From assembly GCA_963281255.1 (NCBI GenBank), contig OY725494.1, positions 1,005,934 to 1,069,933 on the forward strand: a stretch of 64,000 bases of DNA. Direction: 5' to 3'. Positions within the stretch are counted from its first letter, which is position 1, and every line of letters starts with the position of its first letter. The notes under the pieces are model-generated. The model was not told the origin of the DNA and did not search any database. It worked only from the letters and a program-made list of their open reading frames with translations. Origin of the DNA: Aphrocallistes beatrix. Its lineage: Eukaryota; Porifera; Hexactinellida; Sceptrulophora; Aphrocallistidae. Both the position numbers and the translations under genes were made by a program. Positions 4,526 to 39,644 of this stretch are shown one piece after another.

Positions 4526-5203
4526 ACTATGAATAATGTACGGTTTGTGAAGGAGAACTTGTCCAACTTAATCCAGACAATTGAGGGTTTGCTCTCTTTT
4601 ACCGAAATATTCCCGCTTTCTTAGACCTTTGATTGTTGGATATTGTCCCTTCTGAATAGTCTCCCATAATGTAGTAATTGTAGCTTGTATTTTTGTATTT
4701 CTCTTCTGATAGCGTTTCAATTTATTTGTGAAACTATTTCAAATTCGTTAGGCAATGACTCAATCAGCACATAAAAATTGATGTCATCCCTTTCTAAATT
4801 GCACTAAACTTAGACCATCTATCCTTATTTTTATGTCTTAGGTTTGAAGTTGATTTGAGAGAGTTTTTGGATGAGTGACTACGAGAGTTCAAATGCTTTT
4901 ACTTTCTGCTATTTATTGCTATTTTAGACACTTTGGCCTATAAATAAACTTAATCAAATCCACGCATTTGAAGTGACTTTGATAATCATTTGATTGTACC
5001 ATTTCAAGCCATAGTGAACCACAGTTTTGTCTTTTAGGAAAATATTACTTATATGGATGTCAATTGTTATTTATTGTTTGCTAATGTTAATTAATGATAG
5101 TGGAACACACTCAATACAAATTTTAGCAATAAGTTTTAAACAGCCAATATCTAAAATTACTAGTAAACTAACTATACACACACAGAGAGAGACTGTCACA
5201 AGT
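4526..5203. repeat. Spacer duplicated at 14370-14590
   Basis: About 4840-5080 matches 14370-14590 over roughly 220 bp (for example TTTCAAGCCATAGTGAACCA and TATGGATGTCAATT). The spacer was therefore duplicated along with the neighbouring pseudogene units. No gene is seen. Confidence 0.65.
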
Positions 5204-8200
5204 CACGGGTGTAATATTTCAACGAAAATTTGAGAAAAATTACCAATGCAAACCACCTCTATAACAATGTTTTAGGATGTCTATAGCATAAGAATCTCGG
5301 GTTATCTCACTCTGGTCACGTCAGAATTTTTAAATTTTCGTCTTTTTCACAGGTGTCATTAATATATATTTGAAATTTTTATTTTGTTTATTCTAAGCGG
5401 AAGAAAGATTGAATGGGTATTTATAGCATTAAGAATGGACAGAAATACAATGTATATTGTATTAAGGTGATCATTTAAGACTTGTCAGTTCACTCTTATC
5501 CTATTCTTTAAATTTATTTCAATTTTTGCTAAAATTTATACTTGTATTTCGTCTTTCATTAACATACCTTGAAAGACTACTTAAAATTAATGTTAGAATA
5601 GTGAAGAAGTGATTCTACTTCATTCGGGAGCATTTATGATATAACAGAATATCATATATGATGCTTCTGAAACCTTTTTCACAAAACTATACTTGATTTC
5701 CCATGTCGGCCATTCAATTTCGGACGAAAATGAAATTGAGGATTTTACGTATATTTTACAGTTGTACGCTAGACCTTTAAATTTTAGTTGATAATATAAA
5801 AATGCACTTTTGACTGGTAAATATTTAATCTTTCAACAATATTGGATATGGTACTGTCTCCTGATTCAGAACAGGAGGATATTAATTTCTATTGTGAGCC
5901 TACATTTAATGAAATATCAATTGTCAATCGGAGTCACTCTCATCCGAGTTTTCAGAGTCAGTCAACCAGTTATGTAGTTCTATTCTTTCTTCATCGTGCT
6001 CATTTGATTCGCTTTCAAATTCAAAATCTTGTGCGTTATTAAATTCTTCATCCGTATTTTCTGATGTATTTTCTCGGTTTTCCTATTCAATATCTTACGA
6101 TAAATGTCGAAATTCTTTGAAATTCTATTGTACAAATTAGTATTTTATTGCTCATCTATGGATATTCCAAATGAAATTTCTGATCTTTTTGATAATTATC
6201 ATATTGATAGTTTATATCGCCTTTGTCGGTTTTGTTTCAATCGACTTTCTTCCCAAACTATCCCCAAGGAAGCCATTCGCAAACCACCTACCCAACTGGT
6301 AGTAGAAAGAGCTCTGAAATTTTATCAGATACATTTCAAGGTAGAAATTTCTGATATGACTAAGCCTAAAGTTCTTTGCTCTGGCTGTCGTACTCGTCTT
6401 GCTAATCTGGAAACTGGGAAATTAACTTTGGAAAAATTCGAGAAGGACCGTAAAAATCTCGAGATTCTACCAATTATCGAAGATCAACAATATGGTACTC
6501 GTAGAATTACAGGTTGTACATCAGATAATCGTTGCCATGTTTGCCAAATTAATGGCTCTTGCCTTAACAACTGCATGGTCAAACTTAAAACTCATGGTCC
6601 TAAACCAGGCAGACCTCTAGAACAGTCACCATGTAGAACAATGTTTAGTAAATGTGGAAAATTTCTAGAAAATCACAACGATAAATTTTGTAGAAATATC
6701 CTAAAACACCCCCACAGTTCATCAGAAGCTGGAAAGCATTTTGCAGAGAGAGTAGAAGCACGAGGGTTTACAAGTAAATTAGCAGCTGGTTATATCAAAG
6801 ACACATTAAAAAAAGATATTCATTCTAATCCATGCAAGCCATTAATTGGTCTCAACCATCCCTTTGATGCAAACAACAGACTGGCAATAACAACAATCAA
6901 ATATGATGGTAGAAAAAGTCCAGTACTAAAGCAATTGAGCATTGAATCTGCTCGAGATAGTCAAAGACTAGGACATCTTGGTCTTGGAATACATTCATAT
7001 TGGGAATTGGGCAGAATTTTACGTCGGGATGGGATTGTCTTTCCTTCAGGAGGAATTATAGAGGCATGGGATGAAAAATGGTCGGTATTCGGAAGCATTT
7101 TCACTCCAATCACCCTTCAGATGATATGTAGAGAAAATACAAAGAATCCAATGCCAACGCCATTCGGATTTTGTACAGATATTGAACATCTCCTTAACAT
7201 CATCACTCATAATCAATCGGATAAAGTTTCAAGATTAAAACTACAAATTGATGGAGGAAGAGAATTCCTGAAAATGTCGTTAAATATCGTACCCATGAAT
7301 CCTGGTAGTATCTATTCTCCTACACCAAAGAGCGTACTTTCCAACTTTGTTATTGCAATGGGTCATGGTCTAGAGAACTATCAAAATCTGAAAGAGCTAT
7401 TCAGTTTTCCCTCAATTCAAAAATTGTTTTTAATCAATGCGCCTGTACAAATATCTTGTGATTTTAAGGTAGCAGCTTTAATTGTCGGGATTCAGCAAGC
7501 ATCGAGCAAATATCCCTGTCCTTACTGTTTGTGGCGCAATGGTACTTCTTGCACTGGAGTATCAAACCAATCGAGGATGCGAGAAGAAATGATGAATGAC
7601 CTTGCAAAGAAACATCATAATGTCATTAACGAACCACACATTCATTGGTCAGAGTCAGTAATGGAAAAAATTGCTCTAGCTCCACTGCATATTCTTCTCG
7701 GGCTCGTAAATAGACTATTTTCTGAATCAAAACCTAATGAAAAAGCTACAAATAAAAAAGATCGTCAGTTGTATAAACTCCACTGTATGGCGTTATGTAA
7801 ATACAATGTGTTTCGTTCAGAATATTGGAATGGCACCCTAGAAGGCAATTCTTGTTCGAGACTTCTAGACCACTTAGATGATATTCCATTTCCAGCCAGC
7901 TCAGTATGCTTTATCAATGCATTAAAAACTTTGAAACAAGTCAAAGATACATGCCTAGAGATGGTGAGAAAATCAGGTTGGCAAGATAGTATTCGAGCAT
8001 TTAGAGAAGCATGGCGTGATACAGGGTTACCTTGGTCTTTGAAATCACATATCTTATCGGATCATTATGAGGAATACTTGACCCGTTTTGAAAATGACGC
8101 AAATGCTGGTGCAGCACTTAGCTCAGAGCAAAGCGGGGAAATGCTACATTCCAGACTGCAAAAGGTATGGGATCTTCGATTCAAGACTAGGGCTGAAAAT

Positions 8201-9154
8201 CCATTATTTTCTCAACGTCTTGTTGATTGTATGGTAACATACAACTATAACTTAAATTGGGATAGGGCACAAAGGTCTTTAGAAAATACGGATGGAGAGG
8301 CTAACAATACACAAGAATTTGAAAGCGAATCAAATGAGCACGATGAAGAAAGAATAGAACTACATAACTGGTTGACTGACTCTGAAAACTCGGATGAGAG
8401 TGACTCCGATTGACAATTGATATTTCATTAAATGTAGGCTCACAATAGAAATTAATATCCTCCTGTTCTGAATCAGGAGACAGTACCATATCCAATATTG
8501 TTGAAAGATTAAATATTTACCAGTCAAAAGTGCATTTTTATATTATCAACTAAAATTTAAAGGTCTAGCGTACAACTGTAAAATATACGTAAAATCCTCA
8601 ATTTCATTTTCGTCCGAAATTGAATGGCCGACATGGGAAATCAAGTATAGTTTTGTGAAAAAGGTTTCAGAAGCATCATATATGATATTCTGTTATATCA
8701 TAAATGCTCCCGAATGAAGTAGAATCACTTCTTCACTATTCTAACATTAATTTTAAGTAGTCTTTCAAGGTATGTTAATGAAAGACGAAATACAAGTATA
8801 AATTTTAGCAAAAATTGAAATAAATTTAAAGAATAGGATAAGAGTGAACTGACAAGTCTTAAATGATCACCTTAATACAATATACATTGTATTTCTGTCC
8901 ATTCTTAATGCTATAAATACCCATTCAATCTTTCTTCCGCTTAGAATAAACAAAATAAAAATTTCAAATATATATTAATGACACCTGTGAAAAAGACGAA
9001 AATTCTGTGAAAAAGACGAAAATTCAAAAAATTCTGACGTGACCAGAGTGAGATAACCCGAGATTCTTATGCTATAGACATTCTAAAACATTGTTATAGA
9101 GGTGGTTTGCATTGGTAATTTTTCTCAAATTTTCGTTGAAATATTACACCCGTG
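5204..9154 (+). mobile_element. 3.95 kb DNA transposon with long inverted repeats, 4-bp TSD, RAG1-N-like transposase
   Basis: Termini read CACGGGTGTAATATT and its complement. The flanks are AAGT at 5200-5203 and AAGT at 9155-9158. The inverted repeats are about 830 bp each (5204 to about 6030; about 8318 to 9154) and nearly identical, apart from a roughly 19-bp tandem duplication in the right arm near 9001-9025. A paralogous empty site at about 11967-11985 (GTCACAAGTGCTAG) confirms the borders. CAC...GTG ends with a 4-bp duplication fit the CMC/Chapaev group as I know it. The element landed one base beyond the stop codon of the pseudogene at 9160. Intact ORF and matching arms suggest recent movement. 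Confidence 0.88.
6104..8413 (+). CDS. DDE-type transposase with RAG1-like N-terminal cysteine region
   Basis: Intact 769-residue protein, probably the nuclear enzyme that cuts and pastes this element. An alternative start is Met20 (MDIPNEIS). The N-terminal third has CxxC pairs at C41/C44 (LCRFC), C92/C95 (LCSGC) and C144/C147 (CHVC), then KTHGPKPGRP. This order resembles the zinc-binding N-terminus of RAG1 and of RAG1-N-like transposon proteins. The catalytic-type core has D383 (QIDGG), D453 (SCDFK) followed by C472/C475 (CPYC), and a glutamate near E675 (SSEQSGEM), a D-D-C2C-E layout seen in CMC and Transib relatives. The C-terminus is acidic. The last 30 or so codons lie inside the right inverted repeat, so an antisense copy of them sits in the left repeat. 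Assignment to Chapaev/CMC or to an N-RAG group is inference; that it is a transposase is fairly sure. Confidence 0.85.
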   Translation: MSKFFEILLYKLVFYCSSMDIPNEISDLFDNYHIDSLYRLCRFCFNRLSSQTIPKEAIRKPPTQLVVERALKFYQIHFKVEISDMTKPKVLCSGCRTRLANLETGKLTLEKFEKDRKNLEILPIIEDQQYGTRRITGCTSDNRCHVCQINGSCLNNCMVKLKTHGPKPGRPLEQSPCRTMFSKCGKFLENHNDKFCRNILKHPHSSSEAGKHFAERVEARGFTSKLAAGYIKDTLKKDIHSNPCKPLIGLNHPFDANNRLAITTIKYDGRKSPVLKQLSIESARDSQRLGHLGLGIHSYWELGRILRRDGIVFPSGGIIEAWDEKWSVFGSIFTPITLQMICRENTKNPMPTPFGFCTDIEHLLNIITHNQSDKVSRLKLQIDGGREFLKMSLNIVPMNPGSIYSPTPKSVLSNFVIAMGHGLENYQNLKELFSFPSIQKLFLINAPVQISCDFKVAALIVGIQQASSKYPCPYCLWRNGTSCTGVSNQSRMREEMMNDLAKKHHNVINEPHIHWSESVMEKIALAPLHILLGLVNRLFSESKPNEKATNKKDRQLYKLHCMALCKYNVFRSEYWNGTLEGNSCSRLLDHLDDIPFPASSVCFINALKTLKQVKDTCLEMVRKSGWQDSIRAFREAWRDTGLPWSLKSHILSDHYEEYLTRFENDANAGAALSSEQSGEMLHSRLQKVWDLRFKTRAENPLFSQRLVDCMVTYNYNLNWDRAQRSLENTDGEANNTQEFESESNEHDEERIELHNWLTDSENSDESDSD

Positions 9155-9159
9155 AAGTG

Positions 9160-9460
9160 TTAGTATATTATCTGAGATCTGAAGGCCTGAATGAATGGAG
9201 GTCTCCTTTCTTTGTGTCTTTCTACATCAGCTCTGTACCTCTCCATGAGAGGGCGAGTTATCCACTCGTTTACATGGATGTACTTCTTTCTTCTTCTCAG
9301 CAGCTTTACAATGATTGAAGTGAGGATTGCCAAGTTAAATAGAAACGCCATCACACCAATAATTCCATTGCAGATTCCTATTATGATCGAACAACCGAAA
9401 CATATTATGTGTGAAGTTTGTGTTATGTTTTCGGATATTGTGAAATTGATTGGTCCTTGA
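9160..9460 (-). pseudogene. C-terminal fragment of the tandem seven-helix-like family
   Basis: The last ~100 residues match the C-terminus encoded at 11977-12939 nearly exactly: the final helix, then LLRRRKKYIHVNEW, then the RYRADVERHKER tail. The stop codon is at 9160-9162. Upstream of about 9460 the similarity stops abruptly, so the N-terminal part is lost. The transposon at 5204-9154 abuts the stop codon. Confidence 0.8.
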
Positions 9461-9661
9461 ATTAGAAGACCAGCGTGAATGCAGAGGAATAGCAATGATT
9501 TTGGATTGGGATTCTTAGCGAGCGAAGCGAACAAATAAGGGAGTATGGGAGGCTGGCTCCCCATAAAATTTTAAAATCTTACAGAAATATCAATCTACTG
9601 CTATTCTAACCATCTTATGGAGAATTTTGAGCTAATTTATCCTATTATTCATTCATTTTGA

Positions 9662-9787
9662 CCACGGAAATGCATATCCTCTTCACCTACGTAGTATTAT
9701 GTGCCAAATATTGCATTGATGCTCTCATCCATAATCAAATTATTAGAATAAATTAAGACAAAATCAAATAGGAGCCAAAAGTTAAAA
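9662..9787. repeat. Duplicated spacer (second copy at 11722-11842)
   Basis: Near-identical runs such as GCATATCCTCTTCACCTA and CTCATCCATAATCAAATTAT occur in both places. The match resumes after the two nested transposons (GATGCATCTAGCCACTCC at about 10849), so the copy at 11.8 kb serves as their empty site. Confidence 0.7.
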
Positions 9788-10401
9788 CATAGGCGGATCC
9801 AGGGGGGGCCCAGGGGGCCCCCCCTTCGAGGACTAGCCTAATGCACTCGTTCTCGTAGTAGTATATTCCTTATTACATATTTGGGGCCCCCATTTTCTTT
9901 AGGCCAATCTAGAAAGGCGACTCTTTCCAGATTGGTCTCGCATGGGGACATCTGCTACTGTTGAGAGGGCCAATTCTGCCCTGGCATATGTAAAGACGGA
10001 ACTCCGTAGCTCAATGGGTGAAGAACGATTAAATGATTTAATTCTTCTTTATGTCCACAAAGACATTAATCTCACGTATTCTGAGATTGTAGATCGGTTT
10101 GCCATCAAAAAACCACGCTTGATGAAGTTAAGAAATCTATTAGATAACGCAGGTGATGAGACTGAGTGCTAGCCATCAGCAACTGCTAGTTTTCAGTCTC
10201 TAGTGGTAATACAGTGGCACAGTATTACATACTAAAAAATATTATGAATCTTAGTATAGTATATGCAAATGGTCATTCGATATGGGTTTTAATATAATTA
10301 TTCAAAAGATTTTCTGGGGGTCTCCCCCCAGACCCCACCAAAAGTCGCTCGTTCCACTCGCTTTGGCCCCCCCCTTTCGTGAAATCCTGGATCCGCCCCT
10401 G
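9788..10401 (+). mobile_element. Degenerate hAT element with transposase remnant
   Basis: Inverted ends: left CATAGGCGGATCCAGG, right CCTGGATCCGCCCCTG. A clear 8-bp duplication is not preserved. Codons 9942-10172 encode the hAT C-terminal dimerisation block (SATVERANSALAYVKTELRS, then GEERLNDLILLYVH), which marks the family. The rest of the transposase is gone. Confidence 0.8.
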
Positions 10402-10410
10402 AAAAAAGTA

Positions 10411-10826
10411 CAGGCAGCTTTCGACTATTCGCGGAAAATTTTTGAGTCTTGTTTTGCTATTCGCGACTCGTTCCCTCACTATTCGCGGTTTTCGTTACTC
10501 TCTTCAGTAGTTTCATGGGCTACCATAAGTCCATAACTTTATTCGTATCTACAATTTAGTTTTAGTACTAAAGGCTATACTTTACTATTTAGGTATGGTA
10601 CATAGGTTTTGCTACTTGGGGATCTATATCTTTCATTTATCACTTCATTTATTGCTGAGCATTTTACTTATCAATAACTTATTTAGCAAACTGTATCTAG
10701 CGTCGTTTTTATAATCTAGGAACGTAACCCCACTATTCTCATTGAACTAACGTCTTGCCGTTCGCGATTTTGCCATTCGCGACAATTCTCAGGAACATAA
10801 CCCCCGCGAACGGCGAGGGATACCTG
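10411..10826. mobile_element. TA-flanked MITE (pogo/Tigger-like ends)
   Basis: Sits directly beside the hAT element. Ends are CAGGCAGCTTTCGACTATTC and, on the other strand, CAGGTATCCCTCGCCGTTCG, with TA at 10409-10410 and 10827-10828. Internal repeats of TTCGCG. Non-coding. Confidence 0.65.
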
Positions 10827-10870
10827 TATGAATATATATCAGGATGCATCTAGCCACTCCATCAAGGGAT

Positions 10871-11000
10871 TTTCTGATGTGAGAAATATGGTGTTATGAA
10901 TAAGGCCATGATCAGATAGGACCCAAGTGAAAATGAAGCTACTCGATAAATGTATTTGGTTGGAATCATGTTGTTGTGTATATTTTGCTAGAATCTAACA
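10871..11000 (-). pseudogene. N-terminal fragment of the tandem seven-helix-like family
   Basis: Matches the 5' end of the copy at 15894-17101, for example GGTTGGAATCATG and TATATTTTGCTAGAATCTAAC. Only this piece of its copy survives. Confidence 0.65.
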
Positions 11001-11976
11001 TTATTGTTATACATAACCATCATTATAAGCAATGGAACTGAAAGCAATGAATATTTTATCAAACTGTCCAACATCATTGATTAAGATTAGGATTTCGAAG
11101 AAAAAGCTATAGTATGTTTACTATTCGTATTAGCATCACACTTTCTATTTGCTTACTAGCTTAATTTTTCTTACATCTTGTTACGGAATGTTTATTTTTG
11201 TCTATTTTACGAATTTTGATTCACTTCAATTTTAAAACGAGTGCTTATGTTCCACAAAGCCACTTCCTTCTGATTATCTATAATTAATCCATTTAGTAAT
11301 AAATATTTGTCTCGCATCATAATTTCTAGAATTTGATCAAGTAAGACGGAATTTGATACAACTTCTGCTGTTTGGACATTTTCTGCGTTGGACACTTCAT
11401 ATGATTACAAAAGAACAAAAACTAATACAAACGAATCGTGCACCTTCAGGGTTAAACCTTGGATATTCCACAGAAGTATTGAACATGAATAACTTCATTG
11501 ATCTAAGTAAGATAGCTCTATACGTCGTAGTCTATATCTCATTTTCACTCCCTGTGTATCTTAGACCCAATGTCACAACGGCTCCAATAAAGTGTCAATC
11601 GACCGGACTTAAGTTAGCTATTATATATGTACAAATAATTTGTATTGAACTCTCTCCATTATCCTTAATATTAAATGCTAGAACTGTGAAACCCTGAGCT
11701 GATGTTCAGTTCAACCTTGATGCAAATGCATATCCTCTTCACCTAAGTAATATTATGTGTCAAATATTGCATTATGCTCTCATCCATAATCAAATTATTA
11801 AAATAAATTAAGACAAATCAAATAGAAGCCACACAATTAAAATAGTATAAATATCTTTCAGGGTGCATCTAGCCACTCCCTCAGGTGGTTAACCCCCTAA
11901 CTACCCTTGAAATCCGTGGCTGGATCCAACCCTGATATCCAGACACATCAACACACACAGAAACATGTCACAAGTG
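11001..11976. other. Spacer; duplicated block 11722-11842; no recognised gene
   Basis: A 114-codon plus-strand frame at 11353-11697 matches nothing I know and has no exon context, so I do not call it a gene. The 3' part repeats the spacer at 9662-9787. Confidence 0.45.
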
Positions 11977-13060
11977 CTAGTATAGTATTATCTGAGATCT
12001 GAAGGCTTGAATGAATGGAAGTCTCCTTTCTTTGTGTCTTTCCACATCAGCTCTGTACCTCTCCATGAGAGGGCGAGTTATCCACTCGTTCACATGGATG
12101 TACTTCTTTCTTCTTCTCAGCAGCTTTACAATGATTGAAGTGACGATTATCAAATTTGATAGAAATGCTATCACACCAATAATTCCATTGCATATCCCTT
12201 TTATGATCAAACATCCGTGATATATTATGCGTGAAGTATGTGTTATGTTTTCGGATATTGTGAAATTGATTGGATAGTTCGGGATTAAATTTTGGATCAA
12301 ACAGTAACCTTGATTTATATTAGTGAATTCACGAATCGATTCTGTTGCAACCAATATCAGACAGAGGATAAATGTAAACAACGTTATTGATTGGAGGATT
12401 GCGAATGTTTTTGTTGTTCTTTGTTTCTCTTTATATTCTTGTGGCGTAGAGTGCCATTTAGCTTCTTCACTCATGCCTTTCAGTAGAAGATAGAACTTCT
12501 TACTCACTTTTAAACAGACATAAAAATCAAAGACTAGAAAGGGTAATTCCAATGTGGAAAGGAATAATTGAATAAAGAGAATTAGGTAAACTAGCCTGAA
12601 CAAGAAGTAACCAGAATATCCGATTATCCATCTTCTGTATGGAACACTCAGATATGCTCTCCTCAATACGATTAGGAACAAGTTGATTAGAATCGGTAGA
12701 TGGAATACTAAGCCCACACTAGCCTGGATAAACATAGAAGTCTCCGTTTGATAATTAAATGTGCAAGATTTATTCGTATTTGTGTTTAATACAGTCACAT
12801 TGACAGGATCATCAAGACGGTAATCAAAAGAGGTGCATATACCACCAACCGTGATTAACAGGCTGCATAGAGCCTCGAAGCTGGAGATGATTATGATGAA
12901 GTTATAAATCAATGATTGAATCTTGAGATTCTTTTTCACTTTGCTGAGATCGGTTGCAAAGATGGTTGTTGCTGGTATGTTCTTTATCCTCTGTGAAATC
13001 TGTATTTTCTGATGTACGAAGATGGTATTGCGAAGACAGTAATGATCAGATAAGGAATGA
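11977..13060 (-). pseudogene. Best-preserved copy of the tandem seven-helix-like gene, probably a pseudogene
   Basis: A 320-residue frame (11977-12939) encodes a multi-pass membrane protein: about seven hydrophobic helices, N-glycosylation sequons (NVT, NKS, NFT, NIT) in non-helical stretches, a helix with the ELPFLVFDFY proline, a conserved linker KKFYLLLKGMSEEAKWH, and a basic C-tail. The frame starts without an ATG. Upstream, homology to the copy at 17.0 kb continues to about 13060 but in another frame: one T present near 17013 is missing near 13019. No ATG opens that N-terminal frame either. Function is unknown. The layout resembles the intact proteins at 17929-19035 and 20303-21433 (a proline in helix 5, a proline just after helix 3). 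Confidence 0.7.
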
Positions 13061-13220
13061 GTGCGAATGAACCGACTTTGTTAATTTGATCATTAAGTGT
13101 TGGATCTATGTTGTTGTAGAATTTAATATTTTATTTCTTCTTTTCTCTTATTTATATACTATGACTGTTTACGATGGAAAATTTCGTATTGGGAACATGT
13201 GCATTTTTTAGACAACTAGA

Positions 13221-13995
13221 CAGAGCTGGGCACTAAACCGTTAATCCGTTAATCGTTAATTAACGAAATTAAATTTTTCATTAACGATTTAACTTTTAAG
13301 TTAACTTTAAAATCATTAACGGACTAATTAACTTCCGTTACATTTTATAACTTCCGTTACAAGTCCGTTAACACAAATATGAAGGGCATCTTGAAGGACA
13401 AGAGATCATTTCTGTCTGATGAAAACCTCAACATGTTGATTTTCATGAAGGGCAACATGCGTTTCATGGAACTTTTTCAATAAAATCATGTTGCCCTTCC
13501 ATACTTACCAACCCATTTCGACAATTTACTTGGACTCTGGGAGTGAAATTCCTGGATTTTAAATGATTTCCCTGGATTAAAATTCCTTGATATAATTATT
13601 ATTACTATTTTAGTCGTTAAAATCAATCTAAAAAGTCCTTGGACAGTCCAGTGATTCCTGGTTGGTTGGTAAGTATGCCCTTCTAAGATCCCTTAAACTA
13701 TCTCCCTCATTATTCGCAAAATACACAATATCAAAGTTGTGTTAGGAGATATTTTAGCTAAAAAACAACAACAATAAAGGCTCACTTTATAGTTTTACCA
13801 CTTTTTAGATGTTTTTATTTTGTAAAAACTGATTTTGCTGTTGTCTGTAATATATAAATTAACGTTAACGGTTTATCGTTAACTTCCGTTACATTCTTAA
13901 CGAATTAACAGATTAACGGTTAACGAAGTTAACTTTTTGGTTAACGGATTAACGATTAACGAAGTTAACATTTCGATTAACTGTGCCCACCTTTG
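13221..13995. mobile_element. hAT-type palindromic MITE, perfect 8-bp TSD
   Basis: Ends CAGAGCTGGGCAC and its counterpart GTGCCCACCTTTG. Flanked by CAACTAGA at 13213-13220 and 13996-14003. Both subterminal regions are built from repeats of the TTAACG type. The middle (about 13380-13760) shows no coding region. Confidence 0.88.
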
Positions 13996-14003
13996 CAACT
14001 AGA

Positions 14004-14593
14004 CAACTTTATAGAAAGCACTTTCTATGTAATTCGTACAAACTTTCACTACGCGATTGCTTTCTTGCTTTTAACTGCGACAATATATAGTTTTTTTTCA
14101 ATTTTCATTTTTATGAATGCTGTTATAATGATAAATAAATACTAGACAGATTTATTACAATAGCTATTAATCCTAGCTCTGTTGTTGCATGATATTTCTG
14201 CTACCACTACTTTAGCCAAACAATCGCCACTGAATTGTGTCGAGTGTCACATTTTAATGCCACATGGCATAATTTATGATGGTATTTCATTGTTATTGCA
14301 TCTCCTAGAACTTTGCAGATGCCTACGGCATATTTGTGTCCGCTTAGTGTACACATCCTTATGTGTATGTTGGAGATTTGAAGCTGAATTGTGAGTTTTT
14401 GGATGGGAGCTAGAATTCAAACGTTTCTACTCTCTGACTATTTATAACTATTTTAGACACTTTGTCCTATAAATAGATTTAATCAAGCCCTCCACTCGGA
14501 GTGTCTTTGAGAATAATTTGATTTTACCATTTCAAGCCATAGTGAACCACCGTTGTCAGGCAAAGACCTTATATGGATGTCAATTATTATTTA
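14004..14593. repeat. Duplicated spacer downstream of pseudogene array
   Basis: 14370-14590 is the second copy of the spacer at 4840-5080. The 70-codon frame at 14182-14394 has no recognisable features. Confidence 0.55.
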
Positions 14594-15520
14594 ACAAGCG
14601 CGCTTCGCTTGCTTGCGCTGCGCGGCTTGCGGACACTGCGTGTCCGCAGAGTTGCCCTACGGGCGCCTGAAGTTGCTCAAATTAAGCCATTTGGGAATTA
14701 TTTACTTTTTATAAATATTGTAAACAAAGGTTAACGAATAATTTCTCATATGGATCCGAAAATATGATATTCGAAATCTACACCCCTGAAAACCCCATGT
14801 CAACCGTTGGAAGCTATTCTCTAGCCTATTTTTGTAATTTGTTTACTTTATGTATCTATTGTAAACAAAAGTAAACAAATAATTCATCACATCGATCTGA
14901 AAATATGATATTCGAAATCTACACCCCTAAAACCCCATGTCAACCGTTGGAAGCTATTCTCTAGCCTATTTTTGTAATTTGTTTACTTTATGTATCTATT
15001 GTAAACAAAAGTAAACAAATAATTCATCATATCGATCTGAAAATATGATATTCGAAATATACACCCCTAAAAACCCCATGTCATTCGTTGGAAGCTAGTC
15101 TCTGGCATAATTTTCAAAATTCGTCAAATGGTGTGAAAATATGTATACGTATAAGGTGTGAAAATATACAAATAACCTTTTTTACTGCCATACACTATCA
15201 TATATAATTGAGACATTTATATAAGTTATTGCTTTGAAGTACGTATTAATAACAATGACAGCCTACAATAGTGTCTTATAATGATTTCTATTGTGATAGT
15301 GAAGCCGTACATAGTATTGTATAGAAACGGTGTGAAAAATTGTTTTCCATTTTTTTTTGCAGAGGTGTGAAAATTTCGCTTAGCTTTTCGAACTTAATCC
15401 TAGATTCATCATTTGACACCTACATGCCAATTTTCGTATCTCTACGACTTGCCAATTCTTCAATCAATTCGGACAAACAAACAAACAAACAAATCCTAGT
15501 ATTTTAATATATAAGATATT
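14594..15520 (+). repeat. Repeat family A, longest copy
   Basis: Begins ACAAGCGCGCTTCGCTTGC, then a GC-rich hairpin block with TGCGGACACTGCGTGTCCGC. This is followed by two near-identical units of about 120 bp carrying AACCGTTGGAAGC and TGTTTACTTTATG...GTAAACAAAAGTAAACA. It ends CAATTCTTCAATCAATTCGG plus a CAAA run. No protein is encoded. Other copies: 235-512, 26995-27257, 30270-30743, 39645-40495, 40753-40980, 53076-53979, 56494-57172. Confidence 0.85.
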
Positions 15521-15553
15521 TGTTATATTAATTAGTGATATAGTGCAACAGAA

Positions 15554-15893
15554 TGGCGGACAATTCGTCGCATGGACAATTCGTCGCGGACATTTCGTAA
15601 CGCGGAATTTAGTCCCCAAATGCCCAATTTGCACCTACTTATTTCTCAATAAAAATCCCTCATTTTCACCCTTTTTTCCAAATATACTCCACTCCAAAAG
15701 CCTCAATTTCCATTCCTTACATATTAGTACCCGTTTATTTTAGTCTCTAATGAGACGAATTATTCAGGGACAAAAATTCCAGGGACGCTACTCATTATCC
15801 GGTAACTTATGTTCAGGAGACAAATTGTCTATGTGACGAAATGTCCGCGACGAAATATCCATGCGACGAAATGTCCGTGCGACGAATTGTCCG
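15554..15893. mobile_element. MITE with repeated GGACAATTCGTCGC units at both ends
   Basis: Left end CGGACAATTCGTCGCATGG; the right end carries four inverted variants (GACGAAATGTCCG). It lies inside the pseudogene at 15894-17101, at the codons for the conserved basic C-tail. No clear target duplication. Confidence 0.65.
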
Positions 15894-17101
15894 TCAATGC
15901 TCGTTCATATGGATGTACTTCTTTCTTCTTCTCAACAACTTTACAAGGATTGAAGTGAAGATTGCCAAATTTGAGAAAAATACTATCATACCAACAATTC
16001 CATTGCAGATTCCTCCTATGATATAACTGTAGTAACCAGGGTTGGGTTTTGTCCGTCCAAAACAGGTTTTGGACAGGGCAGTGGACAAAACCTGGTTTTA
16101 ACCGGTTAAAACCGGACAAAACTGGACAAAACCTAATGGAAACTGTAAATCATTGCAGTGGGTACGAAACAGTTTAAGATGGAAAGAGAGTGAGGACAAT
16201 GAATGGATTTTCTTGCTAACTCCTGTTTATTACTATAACTATATTTTGTATTCGATTTATCATGGAAGCCACGAACAACACTTGGACAAAACCTGGACTA
16301 AACTTGGACTAAACTTCGATATAACTGTGAATTTATGAATTAAATTAAATTTTGAGGTTTTGTCCAGTTTTGTCCAGTTTTGTCCACCCAAGAGGTTTTG
16401 GACAGGACGGTTTTAACCTGGTTAAAACCACTAGGTTTTGTCCAAGTGGACAAAACCTGCCAACCCTGGTAGTAACGTATTAGGTTATCCGGTATTGTGA
16501 AACTGATTAGATTGTTTGGAAATAAATATTGCACTAAGCAACAACCCTTAGTTAGATAAGTGGAGTCGCGAATCGATTCTGCAACAACTAATATCAAGCC
16601 GAAGATAAATGTAAACAACGGTATTGATTGGAGGATTGCGAATGTTTTTGTTGTTCTTTGTTTCTCTTTATATTCTTGTGGCGTAGAGTGCCATTTAGCT
16701 TCTTCACTCATGCCTTTCAGTAGAAGATAGAACTTCTTACTCACTTTTAAAGAGACATAAAAATCGAAGGCTAGAAATGGTAATTCAATTTGAAATAGAA
16801 TTTTGGATGAAAATGATCGAAAGTGGTGTATATAGTCCCAATCGTGATTAACAAGCATCCAAGAGCCTCGAAGCTGGAGATGATTATGATGAAGTTATAA
16901 ACCAATGATTGAATCTTGAGATTCTTTTTCACTTTGCTGAGATCGGTTGCAAAGATGGTTGTTGCTGGTATGTTCTTTATCCTCTGTGAAATCTGTACTT
17001 TCTGGTGTGCGAAGTATGGTATTGTGAATAAGGCCATAATCAGATAAGGGATGAATGAAAATGAAGCTACTAGATAAATTCTTTGGTTGGAATCATGTAG
17101 T
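15894..17101 (-). pseudogene. Tandem seven-helix-like copy, deleted and interrupted by a MITE
   Basis: The N-terminal piece (about 16771-17101) contains the FAHQKVQISQRIKN and SKVKKNLKIQ blocks. The central piece has KKFYLLLKGMSEEAKWH. The C-terminal piece (15894-16028) has LLRRRKKYIHMNEH. Against the copy at 11977 it lacks roughly 270 bp covering helices 3-4. It is split by the hAT MITE at 16037-16468, and its last 25 or so codons are displaced by the MITE at 15554-15893. Clearly non-functional. Confidence 0.82.
16037..16468. mobile_element. hAT-type MITE, perfect 8-bp TSD
   Basis: Ends CAGGGTTGGG and CCAACCCTG, flanked by GTAGTAAC at 16029-16036 and 16469-16476. The body is built of TTTTGTCCAGT/ACTGGACAAAA repeats. 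Inserted in the pseudogene above. Confidence 0.9.
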
Positions 17102-17162
17102 TATGTATATTTTGCTAGAATCTAACATTTTTATATTAAAGTGGTCCTGGTTAAAGCTGTAC

Positions 17163-17529
17163 CAGGGCTGGGGTTGGTTAACCGATTTTAGGGCTCGGTT
17201 ATTTTGGTTTCCTCTAGGGCGGTTAACCGGTTAACCATGTCAATATTAATTGGTTGAAAATATGGATTTTGGACAAATATTTAACCTACTAGTGATTAAT
17301 TTGATAATTTTCAGTTATCTCGAAATATACTATATGATTAAAAATAGAAATTAAAATGTATTATTAATTTTTTAGAAGTAAAATTCATGAATCTCTGTCG
17401 AAAAACAATGAAATTAGTGTAAATATTTAGAAAATAAAGCAGATCGGCTAGCCGATCTAAGATTTTATTAACCGTTAACCGAGATCGATGGCGGTTAGCC
17501 GGTTAACCGGTTAACCGAAACCAGCCTTG
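17163..17529. mobile_element. hAT-type MITE, 7-bp matching flanks
   Basis: Ends CAGGGCTGG and CCAGCCTTG. GCTGTAC occurs at 17156-17162 and 17530-17536. Subterminal GGTTAACCG repeats. Confidence 0.82.
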
Positions 17530-17928
17530 GCTGTACGATGGCACTTTCGCTTTTAGTTTTTACAATATGTTATTGACTCCATAAATATACAAGTATGAAT
17601 ATTATAACTTTTTATTTGGGAAATATTGGGGTGTACGAGATAATTTTTAAAAAAATCAGTTTATCAAATCCAACTCTTTATCGAATGATGGCATTTTACC
17701 TATTTGTTTGCTATGTTACAGGATACATTTATTGCAATCAGAACACAAAAATATTTTGAGAATAATGTACTTTACAAAAATATACATTTGAATGGATACA
17801 AAGTGTAAATCGAGCCAGTTTATACAAATGTCTAGTGAAATATTTAAAAGGAATACAACGGCTGGATAGATTTGATGCAGTTTAGGATTCACGCACCATA
17901 TTGTGGATCTTTAAAATATATATTGTCA
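17530..17928. other. 3' flank of the next gene; no gene seen
   Basis: AT-rich sequence without coding features. It probably contains the 3' untranslated region of the minus-strand gene at 17929-19035. Confidence 0.4.
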
Positions 17929-19035
17929 CTAGAGATATCTCTTTCTTCTTAATAGAGGTTGTAGCGTTTGATAATTGTAACGGTACTGGTCCACTTTCTC
18001 AGTGTATCTCATCATGCACTTCAATACAATTGGAGAAAATGTAATCAAACACAAAGGTAAACAACTGGAGATTGAATAGATCATAAGAGAGACTTTGTCA
18101 ATGAAATATATGGCAACAATTATATTATGTCTGATATGTATTGGTACTTCAAGGGGAGTTGGGAAGTACCACATCCATGCTAAAATTTTGATACAGCGGT
18201 GGAATAAAAGTATTTCTATTGCTCTGTATAAAATGAATAAGCACCCATATAAACTGAGAGTCAGAAAAGAAATGAGTAGGGCAACACGAAATATTCGGTA
18301 GAATTTGTATGCTGACAATTGCCGATGATATAATACCTTGTTGTTGGAGAATAGTTTGATTTCTGTAATATTGGATTTCAACACACGTGACAGTATAGAC
18401 GTATCTCTCTGAAGAAGTTTCCAATTTATCAAACAGATAATGGGTAACAACAAAATCAAGAAAAACCAAGTATACCATGTGGAGCAGAATGCTAGCAGTA
18501 TGCCTTGGAATAAGTACCAGGAGATATATTTAACTAAAATATGTTTAAATGGATGGTGTAGATATCGCGCAGCTAAATAGCGAGATAGAATGCAGATGAG
18601 AAGTATTGCAAATAAAACGAGAAACAAACATATATTCTGAAGTAGGACATCGAGAGGGTGTTGGGAATAAATGAGGAACCAGGTTGGACTTGAACAATCA
18701 TAATTTTGGTGCATTAAACTGTTCAGTTTTGTTTCATTAGCTAGGTGTAGGCGTGACTGAATTATTTCTGTAATTCCTGAAAAAATAATGCTAACGATCT
18801 CCACAATACTGCACATAATCATTAGGACATACTTAGTGATGTCTGTTTTATAGTGATATAACAAATCTTTCGAGAAATATTGTATACCTGTTTCCTGTTT
18901 TTCACACTCTCTGTTAAGCCTCCTTGCTTGCTTCACCATGAAAATAATCCAGTAAATAATTAGAATTAGTGTTAATGTCCATATTGGGATAGTAGAATAC
19001 AATATATTTTTGGAAAGAAAAACCAATAAATTCAT
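17929..19035 (-). CDS. Seven-helix receptor-like membrane protein, family unknown
   Basis: Intact intronless frame, 368 residues, starting at an ATG (19033-19035). Hydrophobic helices lie at about 11-34, 67-92, 128-152, 168-185, 187-205, 248-270 and 305-340. Loops after helices 1, 3 and 5 and the C-tail (ends RRKRYL) are rich in K/R. The loop after helix 2 carries a glycosylation sequon (N100-E-T) and Cys114. By the positive-inside rule this gives an outside N-terminus and inside C-terminus, as in GPCRs. Helix 3 ends SRYLAARYLHHPFK, loosely like the DRY...P region of rhodopsin-type receptors. Helix 5 has a central proline (LLPII) and helix 7 has FSPIVL where NPxxY would be. I recognise no family and no ligand can be inferred. 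It is head-to-head with the gene at 20303-21433, about 1.27 kb away. Confidence 0.75.
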   Translation of the reverse strand: MNLLVFLSKNILYSTIPIWTLTLILIIYWIIFMVKQARRLNRECEKQETGIQYFSKDLLYHYKTDITKYVLMIMCSIVEIVSIIFSGITEIIQSRLHLANETKLNSLMHQNYDCSSPTWFLIYSQHPLDVLLQNICLFLVLFAILLICILSRYLAARYLHHPFKHILVKYISWYLFQGILLAFCSTWYTWFFLILLLPIICLINWKLLQRDTSILSRVLKSNITEIKLFSNNKVLYHRQLSAYKFYRIFRVALLISFLTLSLYGCLFILYRAIEILLFHRCIKILAWMWYFPTPLEVPIHIRHNIIVAIYFIDKVSLMIYSISSCLPLCLITFSPIVLKCMMRYTEKVDQYRYNYQTLQPLLRRKRYL

Positions 19036-20302
19036 CGTTGAGATCTAAAAGAATTACGTTTGACTAGAATATTTTGTAAATATACTTTTACGTTTATAAT
19101 ATTATATAATTGCATTATATTTATATAAAGTTAGCAATGCTAAAAACGGTTATTGTAATCTATGTATTTACTAAATTTTGTGGTTAGTGGTTAGATTTCG
19201 TAATGTCTACATGATAGTTATATCATGATCGAATGAGGAAATTATCCTGAGATCATGCAAATACGTTAAACTAAATGCGATATCATGTATCCATTAATCT
19301 TACTCAGTTTTATTCTTGAAATTCGAATAGAAAGTGCATATATAGTATGACACGAGTGCTATATCCTCATTGTGTGCTTGTAAATTTCCCTTTACATTCC
19401 AGTTCTGAACATTTGCATGTTGTTTCTTATCATTCACATTTGTAATGAGAATTCTTCGTATTGGTTACATATAATGAATAAATATAAAGCGAAATATAAA
19501 AGGATTCTCTCGAGCATAGTTCTACCTGTTAGATGAGATATTTTATGGGATGTGGGTTACTTCAACCTTTACAGGATTGTGGAGGTACATATTAATTCTC
19601 AATCACCTCAAACTCTTCGTTGGAATTCACTCTGGACTGGTCTGTCTATATTCGTAGGATCCAAACCCGATTCGAAATTCAATCTTAATTATAACTCCTT
19701 TAATTATTAGTACTAGTAAAATATGCGAAGATGCGTATATAATCTTTTTGGTTGGTCACTACTTAAAAATCTGACTTCGCATAACTATTAGCGAATTTGT
19801 ATCACATTGCGAAATCATAAGCGATTTAATGAATCTTTTACTAGAGTACAAATGAGTTTCTGCAAGATTACGTTGAAAATTGGCCATTAATCACCTCTTG
19901 ATTGTATTTAGTTTTGACCTTGTGGTTTGTGACACATTCATTAGTGATAATCTATGATTTTTTTCATTATGAATAATCGCTAATCTCAGTTAAATACAAA
20001 TCATAACAAGGGATATTCTGAAAGTCTAAAACAAATCAAAGGAAACAAGCACCACATTTTAAAAATTCGACGAGATTAATGCGATATAAATGATTTAGAA
20101 CGGATCAAAGAGGGCATTATCATTAGTTCATAATGAAAGCAAGAATATTGAATTTCATTAATCACATGTACTTAAGGGATAATGATTTGGAGTTTTTATG
20201 TAAAGTCAACATGCATATTTGTACAACAAACCACATAGCAGAAAAATTGATCATCTATATAAAGTGTATTTGTATATATCAATTAAAACTACTGTAGATA
20301 AA
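19036..20302. promoter_or_regulatory. Intergenic region between two divergent receptor-like genes
   Basis: 1.27 kb separates the two start codons, so both promoters should be here unless distal exons exist. I see no coding sequence and no defined core promoter motif that I would stand behind. Confidence 0.4.
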
Positions 20303-21433
20303 ATGAATACGGACAATAATAATAATTATACTCCACAGCTTTCCATTTTACACTTGCAGCATTTTGAAAGGATAAGTGAATATACATCTCATCTTGCATT
20401 AGGAATTCAATTAGCAGGAGAGATAATAATAAATGTACTATCTTGTTTTTGGGCTATACATCTAATACTTAGATTGATAAATACTTCACGAATTCACAAA
20501 TTGCAAACATCACCAACATCCGATGGCTTTAGAGAGATTAGAGAAAAATATAAAATTTTGAGAAATAAAAACTCCATTTTATTGGCAATTTGCATAAGTG
20601 AGTGGATTTTAGTCTTTTCAGCCCTAATAATCTCATTTTTCGGTATTCATGTAGCAAATCCTAAGGTAGAATTTTATCTAAATTCTCTAGGATATCCGCC
20701 ATTTGACCATTCGGAGGCGAACAAACACTTGATATTCAGGTTGAGTAATTCCATTTTTCTCACATCCTTTATGTCGATGTTAATCTTAATAAGAATTATT
20801 ACACAATACATGCACAGTTGTTACAGCTATTTCAAACATCCAATACGATTGAAGTACATGATTATATATTTCTATTTTATAATTGCAGTCATTTTCCTCT
20901 TCGGAATTTACGACAGTTGGACAATTATCGTACAGAGCATTCTCTTTCCGATCATGTTAATAATCGAGTATGTCCTCTACATAATATATGCAATCAAGTT
21001 AAATCGCTGTCTCTACGACCGTTATTTCGATTCAAAGCTTCATGAATATCAATCGAAAGGTGTGATAAGCTACTACCGAAAAGCTTATATTGGTTACAAA
21101 GTATGTTCTATTTCTCTAGCAATAGCGTTTCTTTGCTATATAGTTGTATTCTCAATTATCTCGATTATACCTCAAATTTATTTGCTGGGACCAATACTTT
21201 TTAAGTATTGGAACCTATTTTACTTCGTATTTTTATGCCAAAATTTCTTCGCCAATTTTTTCAGCATATTCGCATTCGTATTTTTCACAGTTCCTTACGT
21301 CCTATTCAGTCTAGGATATCTGTACACTCAAGTAGTGAGATGGTACCGATTCAGGAATAATGATTTCTATTCCAATCCGGGTTTGATCAGTGCACTTTTA
21401 CAACATCAAAACACATCTTATCGCAGAATGTAA
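20303..21433 (+). CDS. Seven-helix receptor-like membrane protein, family unknown (divergent partner)
   Basis: Intact intronless frame of 376 residues from the ATG at 20303; the frame is open further upstream but has no ATG there. Helices at about 32-57, 90-114, 147-169, 183-204, 206-230, 264-288 and 310-341. The Asn-rich N-terminus and K/R-rich first, third and fifth loops and C-tail again imply an outside N-terminus and inside C-terminus. It shares layout with the gene at 17929: a charged ~30-residue first inner loop, a helix 2 with C-x(2)-E (CISE; partner CSIVE), a HP motif after helix 3 (FKHPIRLKY; partner HHPFKH), and a proline in helix 5 (LFPIML; partner LLPIIC). Identity looks low, so they are distant paralogues at best. 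No known family recognised. Confidence 0.75.
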   Translation: MNTDNNNNYTPQLSILHLQHFERISEYTSHLALGIQLAGEIIINVLSCFWAIHLILRLINTSRIHKLQTSPTSDGFREIREKYKILRNKNSILLAICISEWILVFSALIISFFGIHVANPKVEFYLNSLGYPPFDHSEANKHLIFRLSNSIFLTSFMSMLILIRIITQYMHSCYSYFKHPIRLKYMIIYFYFIIAVIFLFGIYDSWTIIVQSILFPIMLIIEYVLYIIYAIKLNRCLYDRYFDSKLHEYQSKGVISYYRKAYIGYKVCSISLAIAFLCYIVVFSIISIIPQIYLLGPILFKYWNLFYFVFLCQNFFANFFSIFAFVFFTVPYVLFSLGYLYTQVVRWYRFRNNDFYSNPGLISALLQHQNTSYRRM

Positions 21434-35626: not shown

Positions 35627-35681
35627 TTGTACTGAGGACGAGCATATAGCTCAGAAAGCCTCTAATGTCTGTGCTTTACAA
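35627..35681 (+). ncRNA. Hammerhead-like motif in the 5' region of the Penelope-like element
   Basis: Reads as a minimal type I hammerhead: stem I TTGTA (35627-35631) with TACAA (35677-35681); core CTGAGGA (35632-35638); stem II GAGC-ATATA-GCTC (35640-35652) with a C-A pair at its base; GAAA (35654-35657); a two-pair stem III (GC with GC); cleavage after CTT (35674-35676). Penelope-like elements are known to carry such minimal ribozymes. The non-canonical base of stem II leaves doubt. Confidence 0.5.
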
Positions 35682-35737
35682 CTATTACTACTATCAACCA
35701 CGAATCTTATCTTCTTATATATCGCGCTGAAAAGCAT

Positions 35738-37060
35738 ATGGCAGCTAATGCTGATGAAACCACCATCATGGACGAGACTCTCGCCCCTGAGTTCCCCTAT
35801 TCTCAACCAGAAGGTCTCACCCTAAACCCAAACCTCCCAGAGGATTGTCCGCTCAGGGAATCCCTATCACTGTACCTCCAAGGTGACTACCAGTCACTCA
35901 CCCAATATGTTCTAGGACTCATAGAACCAATCCCAAGACCTGAATCAGGCCTCTCACAATCAACCCTATCCTCTCAAACAACAGCTGACTCACTTCCAAG
36001 GCATACGCCCTCGGATCTAGCTGCAATCGCAGGTATGTGCTCCTCAATCATTCGAAGTATTCCGCAGACCGTTCTGAATTTTTACTCAGACCTGATCTCC
36101 GCCTGGTTATTTGCCAATGACGACCCGGAAGGAGGTGTACCAGCTAAGTATGCGTACACCGCTGCATCCGGCAACTTTGGAGCCCAAATAGTTGCATATG
36201 GTCTTGATCCCCTTATTGACGCATCTTCGGTAAACCCTCGAACCCCACTGTTAGCTCACCCAAATTTCGACCTTGAAGCATTTCATGCTTTGTTGACCCT
36301 CCTGGGTCCAACCGCTCGCAAACGAACCCTCTATCTCAACGTCCTCATTCGAGCACTAACGTGCAAGCTTGTGGTCCAGGACGCATTCGTGCGAAACCAG
36401 ACAAAGGCTCCCAAAGTTCTATCCTACGCAGCAGCGACTTCGGAAAGAGAACCCATTCGCCCTAAACCCAAACGAACGCAAAAGGTCCAATCTATCCAAC
36501 CCACCCCTCTCCCATGTGCCAGATGTTTGGCCACCGCCACTATACTCACAACCACATCCACCAAGTACACAAATCAGCTCACTGTGAAGACTCGAGGAGT
36601 CTCACTGGAAGAGTACGTTAAGACCTTGCCCGCAAATCTCAGGACGCCTTTTAAAGGCATCTTCAACGCCCTCACCCAGGGTACGCCCAATCACTCAGAG
36701 CGACAAGCCTGTCCCGTTTCAAACTCTCAAGATAGAAGAGATCTGTTCGCAACATCCTCAAATGGTCGCCCTACTCAGATCCAACGTGAATCGATGCAGA
36801 AAGCCGTACTCCTATCCTGTAAGGCTAACGGCCTTTGCATGAAGTGTGGTCGAAATCGTACAGCCCAATCCGCAATAAACCATCTCCACTGTAATCCAGG
36901 CCCCAGAAATTGCCCCCCTCGCAAATCAGAGCAGTGCTTTAACGGCACTTGCACTCACCCGGTAATCACGGCACCCTCGTTCTGGAGAGCGAAAACTACC
37001 TTCACAATTACTCCCCGTGCAGATAATATCGCACGAACTGAGCTCCCAAATTTTCATTAA
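35738..37060 (+). CDS. ORF1 of the Penelope-like element, cysteine-knuckle protein
   Basis: 440 residues from an ATG. The N-terminal half has no recognised domain. The C-terminal third has clustered cysteines and histidines: CARC near residue 265, then CMKCGRN near 368 followed by HLHC, CPPRKSEQC and CTH, likely zinc knuckles for nucleic-acid binding. Basic stretches (KPKRTQKVQ) precede them. By position it may package or chaperone the element RNA. It ends 95 bp before the first ATG of ORF2, which is in another frame. I do not recognise a named family. Confidence 0.6.
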   Translation: MAANADETTIMDETLAPEFPYSQPEGLTLNPNLPEDCPLRESLSLYLQGDYQSLTQYVLGLIEPIPRPESGLSQSTLSSQTTADSLPRHTPSDLAAIAGMCSSIIRSIPQTVLNFYSDLISAWLFANDDPEGGVPAKYAYTAASGNFGAQIVAYGLDPLIDASSVNPRTPLLAHPNFDLEAFHALLTLLGPTARKRTLYLNVLIRALTCKLVVQDAFVRNQTKAPKVLSYAAATSEREPIRPKPKRTQKVQSIQPTPLPCARCLATATILTTTSTKYTNQLTVKTRGVSLEEYVKTLPANLRTPFKGIFNALTQGTPNHSERQACPVSNSQDRRDLFATSSNGRPTQIQRESMQKAVLLSCKANGLCMKCGRNRTAQSAINHLHCNPGPRNCPPRKSEQCFNGTCTHPVITAPSFWRAKTTFTITPRADNIARTELPNFH

Positions 37061-37155
37061 GGGAGGGTGGGCTAGCCCTGGTCCCATCCTCCCTACCCTT
37101 AATCGCTTACGAATCCCATTATTGCGAACTTTGCTCCCATTTGTCCACACCTCAC

Positions 37156-39147: not shown

Positions 39148-39347
39148 NNNNNNNNNNNNNNNNNNNNNNNNNNNNNNNNNNNNNNNNNNNNNNNNNNNNN
39201 NNNNNNNNNNNNNNNNNNNNNNNNNNNNNNNNNNNNNNNNNNNNNNNNNNNNNNNNNNNNNNNNNNNNNNNNNNNNNNNNNNNNNNNNNNNNNNNNNNNN
39301 NNNNNNNNNNNNNNNNNNNNNNNNNNNNNNNNNNNNNNNNNNNNNNN
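39148..39347. other. Assembly gap, 200 N
   Basis: Exactly 200 unknown bases, a size many scaffolders use for gaps of unknown length. The true distance may differ. Confidence 0.99.
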
Positions 39348-39644
39348 CTACCATTTTAATTTTGTACTTAAGTTAGAACTTAAGTACCAACTTTAAGTAG
39401 CCTAGTTAAAACCGCTAAGCTCTAACTTAACTCGTTTTCACCAAGATTGGTATTCACTAAGATTTTAGTTTGTGCTTAAGTTTAAACTTAAGTAACAGCT
39501 TAAAGTAACCTCCAGAGGTGGCTTTGATATTCGTTAGCTTTTAATTATTGACATATAGTCTATATTTATTCTAGTATCAGCAATTATGACATTACATTAC
39601 ATAGAGATTAGCATCTAACTTATTTTATTTGAAAATACTGCTTC
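39348..39644. repeat. CTTAAGTT-rich repeat
   Basis: Stretches of (T)ACTTAAGTT and AACTTAAGTA. The same words recur at about 40672-40752 and 48185-48295 (AAGTTCGAACTTAGT). Probably fragments of one non-coding MITE family. Confidence 0.5.

Follow-up and report, generated by a model that had tools for sequence, protein, structure and literature searches.

For Chapaev transposons, CAC...GTG termini, target-site duplications of 3-4 bp and the motifs C(2)C, LH and H(4)H are named as hallmarks (PMC4079192). Motifs of the types C(2)C and H(3-4)H are reported as common to CACTA, Mirage, Chapaev, Transib and RAG1 (PMC12730594). DUF1280 is described as the family of Chapaev transposases and is placed together with RAG1 in clade II (PMC3985635). 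Chapaev proteins with a 'Chapa' domain, which resembles the N-terminal region of RAG1 (RAG1-N), were in print by 2015, and the domain was already used there to explain RAG1-N (PMC4411706, citing Kapitonov and Jurka 2007 for Chapaev with this domain). Here, a complete DNA transposon of Aphrocallistes beatrix is described. It is located at positions 5204-9154 of a 64,000-nt stretch of contig OY725494.1 (GCA_963281255.1); this whole stretch is called the window, and all coordinates refer to it. The element is a further member of the described Chapaev transposons with Chapa domain. Judged by its sequence features it is very probably a Chapaev-type cut-and-paste transposon of the CMC/Transib/RAG1 clade, with a Chapa zinc region joined to a DDE core. 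Five diverged transposase families with a RAG1-N-like zinc region were identified in this one animal genome, and one of these includes an intact element. This number allowed profile tests of the zinc region against all solved structures, in which ZAD emerged as its apparent relative.

Anatomy and copies of the element

The element starts with CACGGGTGTAATATTTC and ends with its reverse complement, the termini being CACGGG...CCCGTG. It is flanked by the target-site duplication AAGT (left copy 5200..5203, right copy 9155..9158). The left terminal inverted repeat of about 859 bp (5204..6062, plus strand) begins with CACGGGTGTAATATTTC. The right one of about 874 bp (8281..9154, minus strand) includes the last 44 codons of the transposase open reading frame (ORF). 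Of the arms, 690 nt are 100% complementary; in their alignment, which has 37 gap positions, 830 of 839 paired bases are the same (98.9%). At 8985-9024 the right arm, unlike the left, carries two tandem copies of the 20-bp unit CTGTGAAAAAGACGAAAATT, a length difference between the arms of this copy.

The transposase ORF (6104..8413, plus strand) comprises 769 codons without a stop. It is the single ORF of at least 80 amino acids inside the element, and there is no RAG2-like second gene. Uninterrupted ORFs also occur in three less closely related family members (L014, L017 and L018; 55-67% identity), whose proteins begin at residue 19 or at most four residues from it. Hence, residues 1-18 are probably not coding, and 6158 is the likelier start. 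The intact protein of 769 residues, proposed by the first-pass annotation, was confirmed with this amendment.

At least ten near copies of the element, alongside divergent families, were found in the genome (100.5 Mb, 28 contigs). Ten copies were checked at both ends: the window copy, L002, L003, L004, L005, C13:1230284, C1:8290356, C1:8877575, C20:223839 and C20:2342928. The CAC...GTG ends with 4-bp duplications, also noted in the first pass, recurred with perfect duplications in seven of the ten (AAGT, CTGA, ATCC, GATC, GCAA, GGGG and TGGG). The three copies without duplication (L002, L004 and C1:8877575) speak against the assignment to Chapaev. They span the full element; one possible reason for the missing match of their flanks is recombination between copies with long arms.

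Between the window copy, L002, L004 and L005, the arms and the middle parts are 98.6-99.4% identical. The middle part of L003 (73-74%) was left out of this value, as it had been compared in inverted orientation. The CxxC pairs of the protein are retained in relatives at 40-67% identity and in four more distant families. The element was found with both ends at ten loci and its pairs are retained in relatives, so it is not a product of chance. Among 51 pattern matches in viral contigs no relative was detected.

An uninterrupted ORF of normal length was present in one of the ten copies only, the window copy, as would be expected if the protein were a host gene after domestication and not a transposase. 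The copy at C20:223839 (L010/L007) has an uninterrupted ORF of 1116 amino acids, swollen by a 24-bp repeat that replaced the first cysteine pair. Domestication is nevertheless extremely improbable: the intact ends, the flanking duplication, the similarity of the arms and sister copies 97-99% identical to the window copy indicate a young insertion. The 24-bp unit (protein TQLVVERA) has expanded in frame before the second cysteine pair to dozens of units, both in L010/L007 and in L013 (C1:8290356).

Catalytic core and probable assignment to Chapaev

A D-D-(CPYC)-E core had been proposed for the protein, and its residues could be located. The putative catalytic set consists of D383 (7250..7252), D453 (7460..7462), C472PYC475 (7517..7528), H529, H649-x4-H654 (8048..8065) and E675 (8126..8128), all on the plus strand. 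CPYC resembles the ZnC2 and H649-x4-H654 the ZnH2 motif. H529 belongs to the LH motif of residues 528-529 (7685..7690, plus strand), and this histidine is invariant in the core alignment A5. D383, D453, C472, C475, L528, H529, H649 and E675 are invariant across four aligned family members; H654 is replaced by Asp in L018. The order D, D-x18-CxxC, LH, HxxxxH, E is the motif set of CMC, Transib and RAG1. D453 lies 19 residues ahead of CPYC. By hand count, this is also the distance in RAG1 from C730 to the aspartate that we take to be catalytic.

The placement in Chapaev was made with the published hallmarks, the DUF1280 link of a sister family and a comparison with the published Chapaev elements by description. 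The CAC...GTG termini, the 4-bp duplications in seven of ten copies and a DDE core with C(2)C, LH and H(4)H were all found; the Chapa (RAG1-N-like) domain was recovered by the multi-family profile only. A genome search with the Pfam profile DUF1280 gave one weak place, L039, with 22.2 bits (cut-off 25). As protein, one L039 piece matched DUF1280 with an E-value of 6.4e-5 and 23.1 bits, likewise below the cut-off of 25. Three pieces of L039 align collinearly with the window core (E 0.015, 6e-10 and 0.002). In addition, L046 of the same genome aligns with residues 33-642 of the window protein (644 columns, E 2e-24); the alignment takes in the CxxC pairs and KPGRP.

Several searches with the window protein and related families count against this placement. 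The window protein matched no Pfam family at E<=10, DUF1280, RAG1 and RAG1_imp_bd included, and found chance chains only in the PDB. The four-family core profile A5 yielded no PDB match at E<=10, either. Because of this, the link of the core to RAG1 and Transib rests on motif order and spacing. In the core comparison suggested in the first pass, the sister family L039 comes near the DUF1280 cut-off and matches the window core; direct profile matches of the window core to Pfam or PDB entries were not obtained. A genome search with the RAG1_imp_bd profile gave no match, but the controls were equally silent.

The same core motifs and the same 19-residue spacing as in RAG1 would also suit a Transib or a RAG-like (RAGL) transposon. 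For Transib, duplications of 5 bp are reported (PMC8355894), whereas those of the present element have 4 bp; it also has no second ORF of at least 80 amino acids and no match to RAG1 of Pfam. Such an origin is most improbable. Chapaev3, for which a Chapa domain is reported as well (PMC4411706), is highly unlikely: its duplication is described as the 3-bp TWA (PMC4079192), in contrast to the seven varied 4-bp duplications found here. We therefore assign the element to Chapaev and not to Chapaev3 or Transib, because of the 4-bp duplications, the CAC...GTG ends and the links to DUF1280 and L046.

With the described Chapaev transposons with Chapa domain the element shares its ends, the length of the duplications, the C(2)C/LH/H(4)H DDE core and the RAG1-N-like zinc region. 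It differs in its inverted repeats of about 860 bp, which run into the ORF, and in an additional PGRP motif and C4 knuckle. No RING was seen after the zinc region, whereas part of the Chapaev proteins have one. The first-pass annotation had assigned the element to a separate second group, of the N-RAG-TP type. This group is not supported or not needed, as the element is of Chapaev type and the Chapa domain is already published (PMC4411706). N-RAG-TP of Aplysia, as cited in PMC8355894, is likewise a transposable element with RAG1-N-like sequence; by that description, it differs in being composed entirely of such sequence.

Zinc region and its likeness to the RAG1 N-terminus

Zinc motifs C1, C2 and C3 are named in RAG1 and RAG1L (PMC7204232). 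According to our own reading, the three cysteine pairs of the transposase would correspond to these motifs. The pairs LCRFC, LCSGC and CHVC, seen at first reading, are present at residues 41, 92 and 144 and retained in relatives. C1 is CRFC (residues 41-44, 6224..6235) and C2 is CSGC (residues 92-95, 6377..6388), the latter preceded by a conserved P-x-x-x-C; both cysteines of each pair occur in all 12 rows of alignment A6. C3, CHVC (residues 144-147, 6533..6544), is nearly invariant. It is followed by the motif PGRPLEQ (residues 168-174, 6605..6625), which by resemblance may be AT-hook-like, and by C4, a zinc-knuckle-like CSKC...H...C (residues 181-196, 6644..6691). All these features lie on the plus strand. 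The three pairs recur in the same order in four other families (L046/L058, L041/L042/L045, L057/L061 and L072), and the knuckle CxxC...H...C follows them in families 1 to 4. In the numbering of the 151-residue module, C23, C26, Y56, P70, C74 and C77 are invariant in the 12 rows of A6, while H15, R24, P105, C126 and C129 are nearly so.

The first cysteine of C4, position 181, is Phe in the window copy, Ser in the C13 copy and Cys in two sister copies, and the pair is conserved in relatives. Given the loss of this conserved cysteine, the enzyme encoded by the window copy may or may not be active.

The likeness of residues 19-169 to RAG1-N appears to be better than chance, but modest and weak by E-value, and it emerged with multi-family profiles only. 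It agrees with the Chapa domain published for Chapaev proteins (PMC4411706). The human RAG1 query scored 1269 bits for RAG1 and 407 bits for RAG1_imp_bd in a check against Pfam. Profiles were scored against RAG1 96-240 and compared with 5000 shuffles, either full or with fixed cysteines, at a loose and a strict gap setting. With the three-family profile and loose gaps, 0/5000 full and 1/5000 Cys-fixed shuffles reached the RAG1 score; with strict gaps the numbers were 6/5000 and 72/5000. At the two gap settings, family 1 alone was reached by 5 and 11/5000 full and by 62 and 67/5000 Cys-fixed shuffles, and family 3 alone by 1 and 17/5000 and by 5 and 86/5000, respectively. A separate run with family 1 alone gave 11 to 19/4000 full and 46 to 112/4000 Cys-fixed shuffles. 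For other stretches and weights, 0 to 37/5000 full and 5 to 290/5000 Cys-fixed shuffles were counted. Extension of the profile through C4 brought no gain with loose gaps (10/5000 full, 95/5000 Cys-fixed).

Both HMMER and hhalign placed C1 and C2 of the three-family profile in register with RAG1. With HMMER, the in-register stretches against full-length RAG1 scored -0.6 and 3.9 bits at a whole score of -1.8. For family 1, hhalign placed RAG1 out of register, and the best HMMER stretch (3.3 bits) was out of register as well, the in-register stretch scoring -0.5 bits. Among 93 scored sequences (91 ORFs of the examined loci and the window, and two RAG1 entries; marked transposases were excluded) RAG1 87-225 ranked first with 14.7 bits versus 6.0 bits for the best ORF. 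Full-length RAG1 reached 1.3 bits, behind three ORFs.

The PDB search covered 177,635 sequences and was not aimed at RAG1. With the four-family profile, four sequences were found at E<=10: Grauzone (ZAD) with 0.082, the mouse RAG1 N-terminus 21wb on rank 2 with 0.17, MAK16 with 0.56 and CG2712 (6fp5) with 1.7. The five-family profile gave Grauzone with 0.06, RAG1 21wb again on rank 2 with 0.079, two ferredoxins with 0.26 and 0.51 and CG2712 with 1.9. The three-family profile listed Grauzone with 0.017 and a tRNA ligase with 4.1, and RAG1 was not listed. The entry 21wb_A of the 2026 PDB is the solved N-terminal region of mouse RAG1, with 137 amino acids from C1 to C3. Of the three distinct RAG1 sequences with this region in the PDB, 21wb alone reached the profile lists. 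A fold search of the PDB listed no RAG1 chain; as its library ends in April 2026 and may lack 21wb, this is not counted as evidence against the likeness. The AlphaFold model of the whole protein, calculated from a 7-row alignment, was of low confidence (pLDDT 34.5).

Three results weigh against the likeness to RAG1-N. Family 2 (L046) alone gave no signal: 617 and 759/5000 full and 1496 and 1520/5000 Cys-fixed shuffles reached the RAG1 score at the two gap settings. In hhalign the three-family profile aligned to RAG1 with a probability of 0.9% (E 0.064), in register. The E-values of RAG1 in the PDB searches all exceeded 0.05. Hence, a generic zinc treble clef has to be considered, with two cysteine-rich regions that have no common descent. 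The low hhalign probability fits this explanation, as do the Cys-fixed shuffles, which reach the RAG1 score of multi-family profiles in 40 to 290/5000 cases at strict gaps, and the insect ZAD, which matches the profile no worse than RAG1. It is nevertheless unlikely, since the order of CRxC, the (F/Y)xID...PxxxC block and the third pair is that of RAG1, RAG1-N ranked second among the 177,635 PDB sequences, and the zinc region sits on an enzyme of the same clade as RAG1. The published Chapa domain (PMC4411706) also argues against it.

Compared directly, both regions show three ordered CxxC pairs, CRxC, (F/Y)xID and PxxxCxxC. The spacing of the pairs is different, with 65 and 35 in human RAG1 versus 51 and 52 in the window protein, which moreover has no RING and a core that is only distantly related. 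Of the earlier RAG1-N claim, the likeness of the multi-family profile beyond chance could be retained in modest form, while the single protein matched no Pfam family at E<=10. By eye only, KIHLSTK resembles KIHICTK ahead of the RING of RAG1, a likeness that is not claimed here.

The protein would consist of a two-pair module (C1 and C2) resembling both RAG1-N and ZAD, C3, the PGRP motif, the C4 knuckle and a DDE core, RNase H-like by family. By analogy with the clade, the transposase may bind the element ends and pair them, the DDE core would cut at the CAC/GTG ends, and the ends would be joined to the target DNA with a 4-bp stagger. As to the zinc region, its most likely role is dimerisation of the enzyme, binding of the long inverted repeats, or both. 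A ZAD-like module might mediate the dimerisation, with the PGRP motif and C4 touching the DNA.

ZAD-like module and neighbouring sequences

The insect ZAD of Grauzone took rank 1 in the PDB profile lists, and CG2712 (6fp5) is presumably a ZAD, too. ZAD domains homodimerise. The genome search with the Pfam profile zf-AD gave three matches, the best two being N-termini of Chapaev-type transposases. The best one reached 21.1 bits (cut-off 28), and 20.6 bits as protein. It is the N-terminus of a fifth Chapaev-type family (L072 237-1728). The third match, which we read as a ubiquitin-protease-like ORF, was set aside.

C1 and C2 are in register with the ZAD (zf-AD) of insect transcription factors such as Grauzone and Pita, which was the top PDB profile match and a weak structural match. 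The transposase differs in scoring below the Pfam cut-off. ZAD is not known to carry a third pair, and it occurs on C2H2 proteins instead of transposases. The first two cysteine pairs of Chapa and of RAG1 may be a ZAD-like treble clef. As a tentative further step, C1 and C2 of Chapaev transposases and of RAG1-N possibly form a ZAD, and insect ZAD factors and RAG1-N may descend from a common treble clef, for which Chapaev-type transposons are a plausible carrier. If so, homodimerisation would be a testable proposal for a region of RAG1 with a debated evolutionary source.

Some results speak against a ZAD. With RAG1-N as query, phmmer listed C2H2 fingers beside RAG1 chains, and ZAD was absent; human RAG1 had no zf-AD match at E<=1. 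At E<=10, zf-AD did not match the proteins of the window, L013, L018, L024, L036, L041, L042 and L045; weak matches were obtained for L014 (E 0.19) and L046 (8.8). Matches presumed to be due to chance reached similar E-values in the zf-AD protein scans (Sec7 0.0036, L024).

Beside the transposon, at 9160-21433, there are several membrane-protein-like ORFs, some of them alike. By eye, the window also contains animal-type genes, with Tollip-like, TRP-like and NACHT/LRR-like ORFs. An innexin search made with regard to a sponge host gave no match, and none in its controls either. The NACHT/LRR-like ORFs at 43792-47161 could belong to an innate-immune receptor gene. Between them and the transposon, the ORFs at 35666-39396 resemble, by eye, a Penelope-type retroelement, with reverse transcriptase-like and GIY-YIG-like motifs.

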